Shown piece after piece: positions 36,182-36,352 of a stretch of 64,000 nucleotides of DNA. Under the pieces are notes generated by a model. The model made no database searches. It had not been told where the DNA came from and saw only the letters and a program-made list of their open reading frames with translations. Source of the DNA: Hyphomonadaceae bacterium (lineage in GTDB: Bacteria > Pseudomonadota > Alphaproteobacteria > Rhizobiales > Hyphomicrobiaceae); assembly GCA_019747815.1 (NCBI GenBank), contig JAIEQJ010000073.1, positions 1 to 64,000 on the forward strand. Direction: 5' to 3'. The position numbers were made by a program, and so were the translations under genes. Position 1 is the stretch's first letter, and each line of letters starts with the position of its first letter.

Positions 36182-36352
36182 ATGGAAATTCACAAGCTTT
36201 TGCAAGCCGAGATTCGCGTCGTCAATATCGGCCTGCGCGCGTTCGCGCGTGACCTGGAGCGTTGCAAGACCAGTGTCGTGCATGTCGACTGGGCGCCCCC
36301 CGCGGTGAGCAATCCCAGGATTGCAGCTTTGCTTGCCAAGCTCGGAGCATAA
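36182..36352 (+). CDS. 56-aa small ORF upstream of DUF1116 gene; FdrA/DUF1116-system-associated domain
   Basis: ATG 36182 with GA-rich SD (ATACGAGG); MEIHKLLQAEIRVVNIGLRAFARDLERCKTSVVHVDWAPPAVSNPRIAALLAKLGA; TAA 36350-36352, next ATG at 36354. Below the 60-aa cutoff of the supplied ORF track. Confidence 0.78.
   Translation: MEIHKLLQAEIRVVNIGLRAFARDLERCKTSVVHVDWAPPAVSNPRIAALLAKLGA

Follow-up and report, generated by a model that had tools for sequence, protein, structure and literature searches.

Carbamoyl transfer with carbamoyl phosphate is carried out by the classical carbamoyltransferases (ATCase, OTCase and YgeW), which are encoded by one or two genes, and the same reaction class is shared by the AllFGH-type enzymes. 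In Escherichia coli, AllF, AllG and AllH form oxamic transcarbamylase, which converts oxalurate and phosphate into oxamate and carbamoyl phosphate; the activity was assigned to genes only in 2024, as a three-gene enzyme without sequence similarity to the classical carbamoyltransferases (PMC11326118). Here we describe a segment, called the tail, that forms the last approximately 50 residues of E. coli FdrA (AllF; b0518) and has no counterpart in ATCase, OTCase or YgeW. E. coli K-12 has both fused forms of it, FdrA (555 aa) with YlbE (419 aa) and YahF (515 aa) with YahG (472 aa). FdrA carries the tail covalently, and its crystal structure (PDB 3DMY) covers residues 82-555. YahF (b0320) is without the tail, which instead stands at the N-terminus of YahG (b0321), directly ahead of the AllG domain. 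YlbE and the AllG of Enterococcus faecalis (PDB 3CLQ) are themselves without it. The D296Y change described in E. coli FdrA lies outside the tail and is not informative on it (PMC8550087).

The locus under study lies in a 64,000-nucleotide stretch of a Hyphomonadaceae bacterium contig (JAIEQJ010000073.1), and this whole stretch is referred to as the window. Whereas the tail of E. coli FdrA is covalent and located upstream of ylbE, that of the window has its own gene 5' of AllG, and AllG is in turn followed by the AllF core. The 56-aa ORF is homologous to the end of E. coli FdrA, with 43-44% identity in the aligned segment, and the remainder of E. coli FdrA is homologous to the window FdrA, which lacks the tail as YahF does. 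Unlike in YahG, tail and AllG are not one protein here; the window AllG is homologous to 3CLQ and YlbE over its full length (E=2e-126). The tail sequence is not new in itself because it is already part of FdrA and YahG. A search of the openly available literature found no paper that treats the segment as a gene or subunit of its own.

The short reading frame and the two operons

The original prediction had described a 56-aa ORF ending one base before the ATG of the DUF1116 gene, and retranslation and coordinates agreed with this exactly (Table 1). The only possible start codon in the stop-to-stop segment of the ORF is its ATG, which is preceded by a motif resembling a ribosome-binding site; the stop codon TAA occupies positions 36350-36352, and AllG starts one base beyond it. 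The ORF matched the extreme end of the NCBIfam FdrA model NF004760 as well as E. coli FdrA, and none of the Pfam models matched the tail segment. Within 135 kb of control sequence, made up of the whole window and 20 non-FdrA loci, the ORF was the sole match at E<=10 of a tail HMM built in this analysis. Between the ORF and its Rhodoplanes serenus orthologue, dN was 0.32 and dS 1.02, with 20 differences at the first, 12 at the second and 24 at the third codon position. The 24 amino-acid changes compare with a mean of 33 when the 56 substitutions were placed randomly (p=0.0002). These values point to purifying selection and run against the proviso of the original prediction that codon-conserved orthologues might be missing. 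Sequence comparison thus confirmed the predicted ORF as real, beyond chance, and the predicted peptide is presumably made.

Table 1. Features of the tail locus, its surroundings and an unlinked tail gene.
Feature	Coordinates	Strand	Evidence or remark
HbpS/GlcG-like protein	34205..34627	-	PF03928 5e-32; 91% identity over 100 aa in Rhodoplanes serenus L035
Ring-opening amidohydrolase (AtzD/TrzD family), divergent	34653..35768	-	PF09663 1e-111, TIGR02714; 85% identity in Rhodoplanes serenus L035
AAGGA, ribosome-binding-site-like (predicted)	36169..36173	+	8 nt 5' of tail ATG
Free-standing AllF/FdrA tail gene, 56 aa	36182..36352	+	NF004760 positions 504-554 of 555, E=5.2e-10; PDB 3DMY 428-473, E=3.4e-7; tail HMM 77 bits
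AllG (DUF1116, PF06545)	36354..37619	+	PF06545 E=2.3e-87; 3CLQ
AllF (FdrA) core without tail	37622..39127	+	NF004760 positions 6-495 only, 490 bits
AllH (DUF2877), part of second operon, extending 146 bases beyond window end	63166..64000	-	PF11392 1.2e-22 at C85:63265-63585
Lone tail gene of genome G274 (L152)	G274:C41:23501-23653	-	beside rnpA/yidC

The window FdrA stops at position 495 of the model and the ORF covers positions 504-554; therefore, the ORF is the missing end of FdrA, separately encoded. With its own start and stop, it is not part of the FdrA polypeptide, and operon 1 runs tail, AllG, AllF core. Judged by the model positions, the gene is the detached end of FdrA rather than an extra part, a point not noticed in the original prediction.

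A second operon, tail2-AllG2-AllF2-AllK-AllH, is located on the minus strand of the same contig, just beyond and across the window end. Its tail2 is again a separate gene, of 67 aa, and AllK is a carbamate kinase. A 518-aa open frame around tail2 was considered as an FdrA fusion and rejected as merely a long mechanical frame, the likely gene being that of 67 aa. In total the genome contains two AllG, two AllF, two tails and one AllH, so that AllF, AllG and AllH are all encoded, operon 1 alone being without AllH. The DUF2877 context originally given for the ORF had to be corrected accordingly, as the single AllH (DUF2877) is about 27 kb away, in the second operon.

Architectures and co-occurrence of the tail

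We sampled 80 FdrA loci from many phyla, 10 loci from the order and 19 loci that the ORF had retrieved from the class. HMMs of the tail, AllG and AllF were then built, and each tail was assigned to an architecture. Among the 99 tail matches, in which locus counts are not independent events and "free" was judged from stop-to-stop frames, 42 were free-standing, 52 were fused to the N-terminus of AllG and five to the C-terminus of AllF. The YahG-type tail-AllG fusion is thus the commonest form. About 40 free tails remain after one locus matched twice and one genome sampled twice are dropped, and they come from Pseudomonadota, Bacillota, Spirochaetota, Chloroflexota and a Hadesarchaea MAG. Loci L060 and L121 are identical in sequence. 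The two plasmid records inspected for annotation of free tails had no gene table across the matched region. Wherever tail and AllG are linked, the tail lies directly 5' of AllG. In R. serenus the orthologue shares with the window both the stop and the 1-nt gap before AllG; elsewhere the gap varies between -4 and more than 20 bases and falls in all frames.

G17 and W37 (ORF numbering) are present in essentially every tail, and at least about 95% of the tails have N15, F21 and P39. The residues of the pattern N-x-G-x3-F ... W-x-P are common to free, AllG-fused and AllF-fused tails, and the window tail has all five of them, with SN instead of the consensus GG after W-x-PP. In one free tail, L055:3023-3229, the W-x-PPAGG region is repeated by an internal insertion rich in glycine and proline. 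On the AllF+AllG tree, the architecture labels need 13 changes, of which at least seven, between free and the rest, are forced by well-supported branches; free and fused states have accordingly interchanged repeatedly on this tree. The motif that the original prediction had described as a recurring segment of FdrA-type proteins indeed forms the C-terminus of E. coli FdrA as well as the start of the YahG-type DUF1116 partner. Fusions to FdrA and to DUF1116 proteins, which it had proposed to look for, are represented by five and 52 of the 99 matches, and the same 99 matches speak against its concern that FdrA/DUF1116 loci might hold no homologous segments. Its claim of a separate polypeptide holds for 42 of them, and in some genomes the tail is even on another contig than AllF and AllG.

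In a survey of 395 genomes of the class (cut-offs E<=1e-3 for the tail and E<=1e-20 for FdrA), the tail was found in 18 genomes and AllF in 18, and the two lists were identical. AllG-family proteins were present in 37 of the 395, and 19 genomes with AllG-like proteins had neither tail nor AllF. Likewise, neither was found near the AllG-like gene in eight regions with AllG-like proteins only, or near two extra AllG-like copies in tail-bearing genomes. The absence of the tail where AllG-like proteins stand without AllF indicates that the tail accompanies AllF and not AllG-like proteins as such. A second DUF1116 (AllG-like) branch in Alphaproteobacteria (L158-L167), with neither AllF nor tail nearby, was also observed, and it probably has another partner and function.

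Twelve genomes without a tail at the AllF locus were searched whole, and nine of them have tail and AllG elsewhere. The search found neither tail nor AllG in the other three, probably due to incompleteness of these MAGs. In some of the nine genomes, the tail is on a different contig; several unlinked-tail cases rest on MAG contigs, which are possibly chimeric or frameshifted. In genome G274, which belongs to the same family as the window organism and is 99% complete, contig 35 carries AllG, AllF and an AllH-like gene, and contig 41 a lone 64-aa tail, between the genes for the RNase P protein (rnpA) and YidC and a class-V aminotransferase gene. In two MAGs, one of Dadabacteria and one of Thermodesulfobacteriales (L146 and L147), the tail is joined to an extra copy of the AllF N-terminal domain of approximately 95 residues, the rest of AllF being missing. 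Such unlinked tails and N-domain fusions are marks of a part able to act in trans. At L154:2848-3312 (-) and L155:5453-5926 (+), a protein of approximately 155 aa lacks the CoA-ligase-like middle and is made up of an AllF N-terminal domain and the tail; the former is about 7.5 kb or more from the full AllF, and the latter is on another contig than the full AllF.

Alternative explanations and the proposed subunit

The tail is short and separated from an FdrA that is without it, as would be expected of a decaying remnant of a truncated or rearranged full-length FdrA without present function. We consider such a remnant highly improbable, because about 40 free-tail loci in several phyla keep the invariant residues of the fused tails, the dN/dS ratio is about 0.3, the genome carries two independent free copies, and the tail is present in every AllF-bearing genome of the class survey. 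A split of one YahG-like protein by a sequencing error, or its joining by programmed frameshifting, could be suspected from the single base that separates the end of the tail from AllG, the different frames of the two (their starts are 172 bases apart) and the fact that the YahG-type fusion is the commonest form. On the other hand, the R. serenus orthologue shares the stop and the 1-nt gap, other loci have gaps of varying length in all frames, AllG starts at an ATG of its own, the split recurs in the second operon, and some tails are unlinked, which together make this explanation very unlikely.

It is also hard to believe that the ORF is a regulatory leader or peptide that mainly serves the translation of AllG and is not part of the enzyme. 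Its small size, its position just upstream of AllG and the likely translational coupling would suit a leader; however, in most lineages in-frame fusion to AllG or AllF builds the tail permanently into the enzyme, it is the amino-acid sequence that is conserved, and unlinked copies cannot serve as leaders.

We favour as the likely reading that the tail is a small trans-acting subunit of an AllFGH-type carbamoyltransferase, together with the tail-less AllF core and AllG. The tail would be a strand-helix-strand-helix module of AllF made as its own polypeptide, its translation probably coupled to that of AllG directly downstream, and would most likely assemble with the AllF core and AllG into the enzyme. 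Depending on the lineage, one and the same module is joined to the AllF end, the AllG start or an AllF N-domain, which suggests that these chain ends are close together in the complex; the fusions would place the tail among them, at the junction of the C-terminus and the N-terminal domain of AllF with the N-terminus of AllG. At this site the tail may join AllF to AllG and complete the AllF-AllG interface or the active site. Whether the tail is an obligate, unnamed fourth AllFGH component of approximately 50 residues, which would bring its invariant residues into the interface of AllF with AllG or into the active site, and could be supplied in trans as a free peptide, also from an unlinked gene, we regard as an even bet.

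In the AlphaFold model of a natural tail-AllG fusion, the whole-model pLDDT was 89.5 and the tail blocks ranged over 76-96, so that the tail is folded with fair to good confidence. Its strands at residues 13-16 and 32-35 and its helices at 19-27 and 45-55 have block values of 76-94. The invariant N, G, W and P are located in this model at or just past the ends of the two strands. In the model of an AllF-tail fusion, for which the alignment had almost no tail rows, the tail was poorly defined. A Foldseek search with the tail-AllG model matched only the AllG structure 3CLQ, which itself is without the tail.

Genomic neighbourhood and implications

Divergent from tail-AllG-AllF is a block of genes for a LOG-family protein, the HbpS-like protein and the amidohydrolase, and the whole arrangement (window 33579-39127) is kept in R. 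serenus (L035), where the LOG-family counterpart has 66% identity. The R. serenus genome has a single AllH, located elsewhere beside another AllG. In sequence, the amidohydrolase is closer to cyanuric acid hydrolases than to barbiturase, and it scores under the cyanuric acid equivalog cut-off. Members of its family produce carboxybiuret from cyanuric acid and ureidomalonate from barbiturate, and both products, like oxalurate, contain the H2N-CO-NH-CO- group, so that the same chemistry could conceivably yield carbamoyl phosphate from them. Because the amidohydrolase gene is divergent next door both here and in Rhodoplanes, operon 1 perhaps acts on a ring-opened N-carbamoyl amide. Its substrate may be an oxalurate analogue, such as ureidomalonate or carboxybiuret, supplied by the amidohydrolase, and its enzyme would then possibly share the single AllH of the second operon. 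Possibly the conserved block constitutes a pathway that handles ring-opened ureides and includes a dedicated carbamoyltransferase. A few kb downstream, the 603-aa product of 43439-45250 (+) has, by eye, the look of a NodU/CmcH-type carbamoyltransferase unrelated to AllFGH, and the ORF at 41738-42292 (+), again by eye, resembles the N-terminal part of an IS481-type transposase, seemingly broken.

AllFGH-type enzymes thus seem to have an overlooked fourth, separable module, which is easily missed because it is so short. AllF and AllG expressed from such bacteria without the 56-aa gene may give no enzyme, and the free form of the tail provides a simple add-back test of its role. In addition, the interchangeable fusion forms suggest which chain ends adjoin in the complex.
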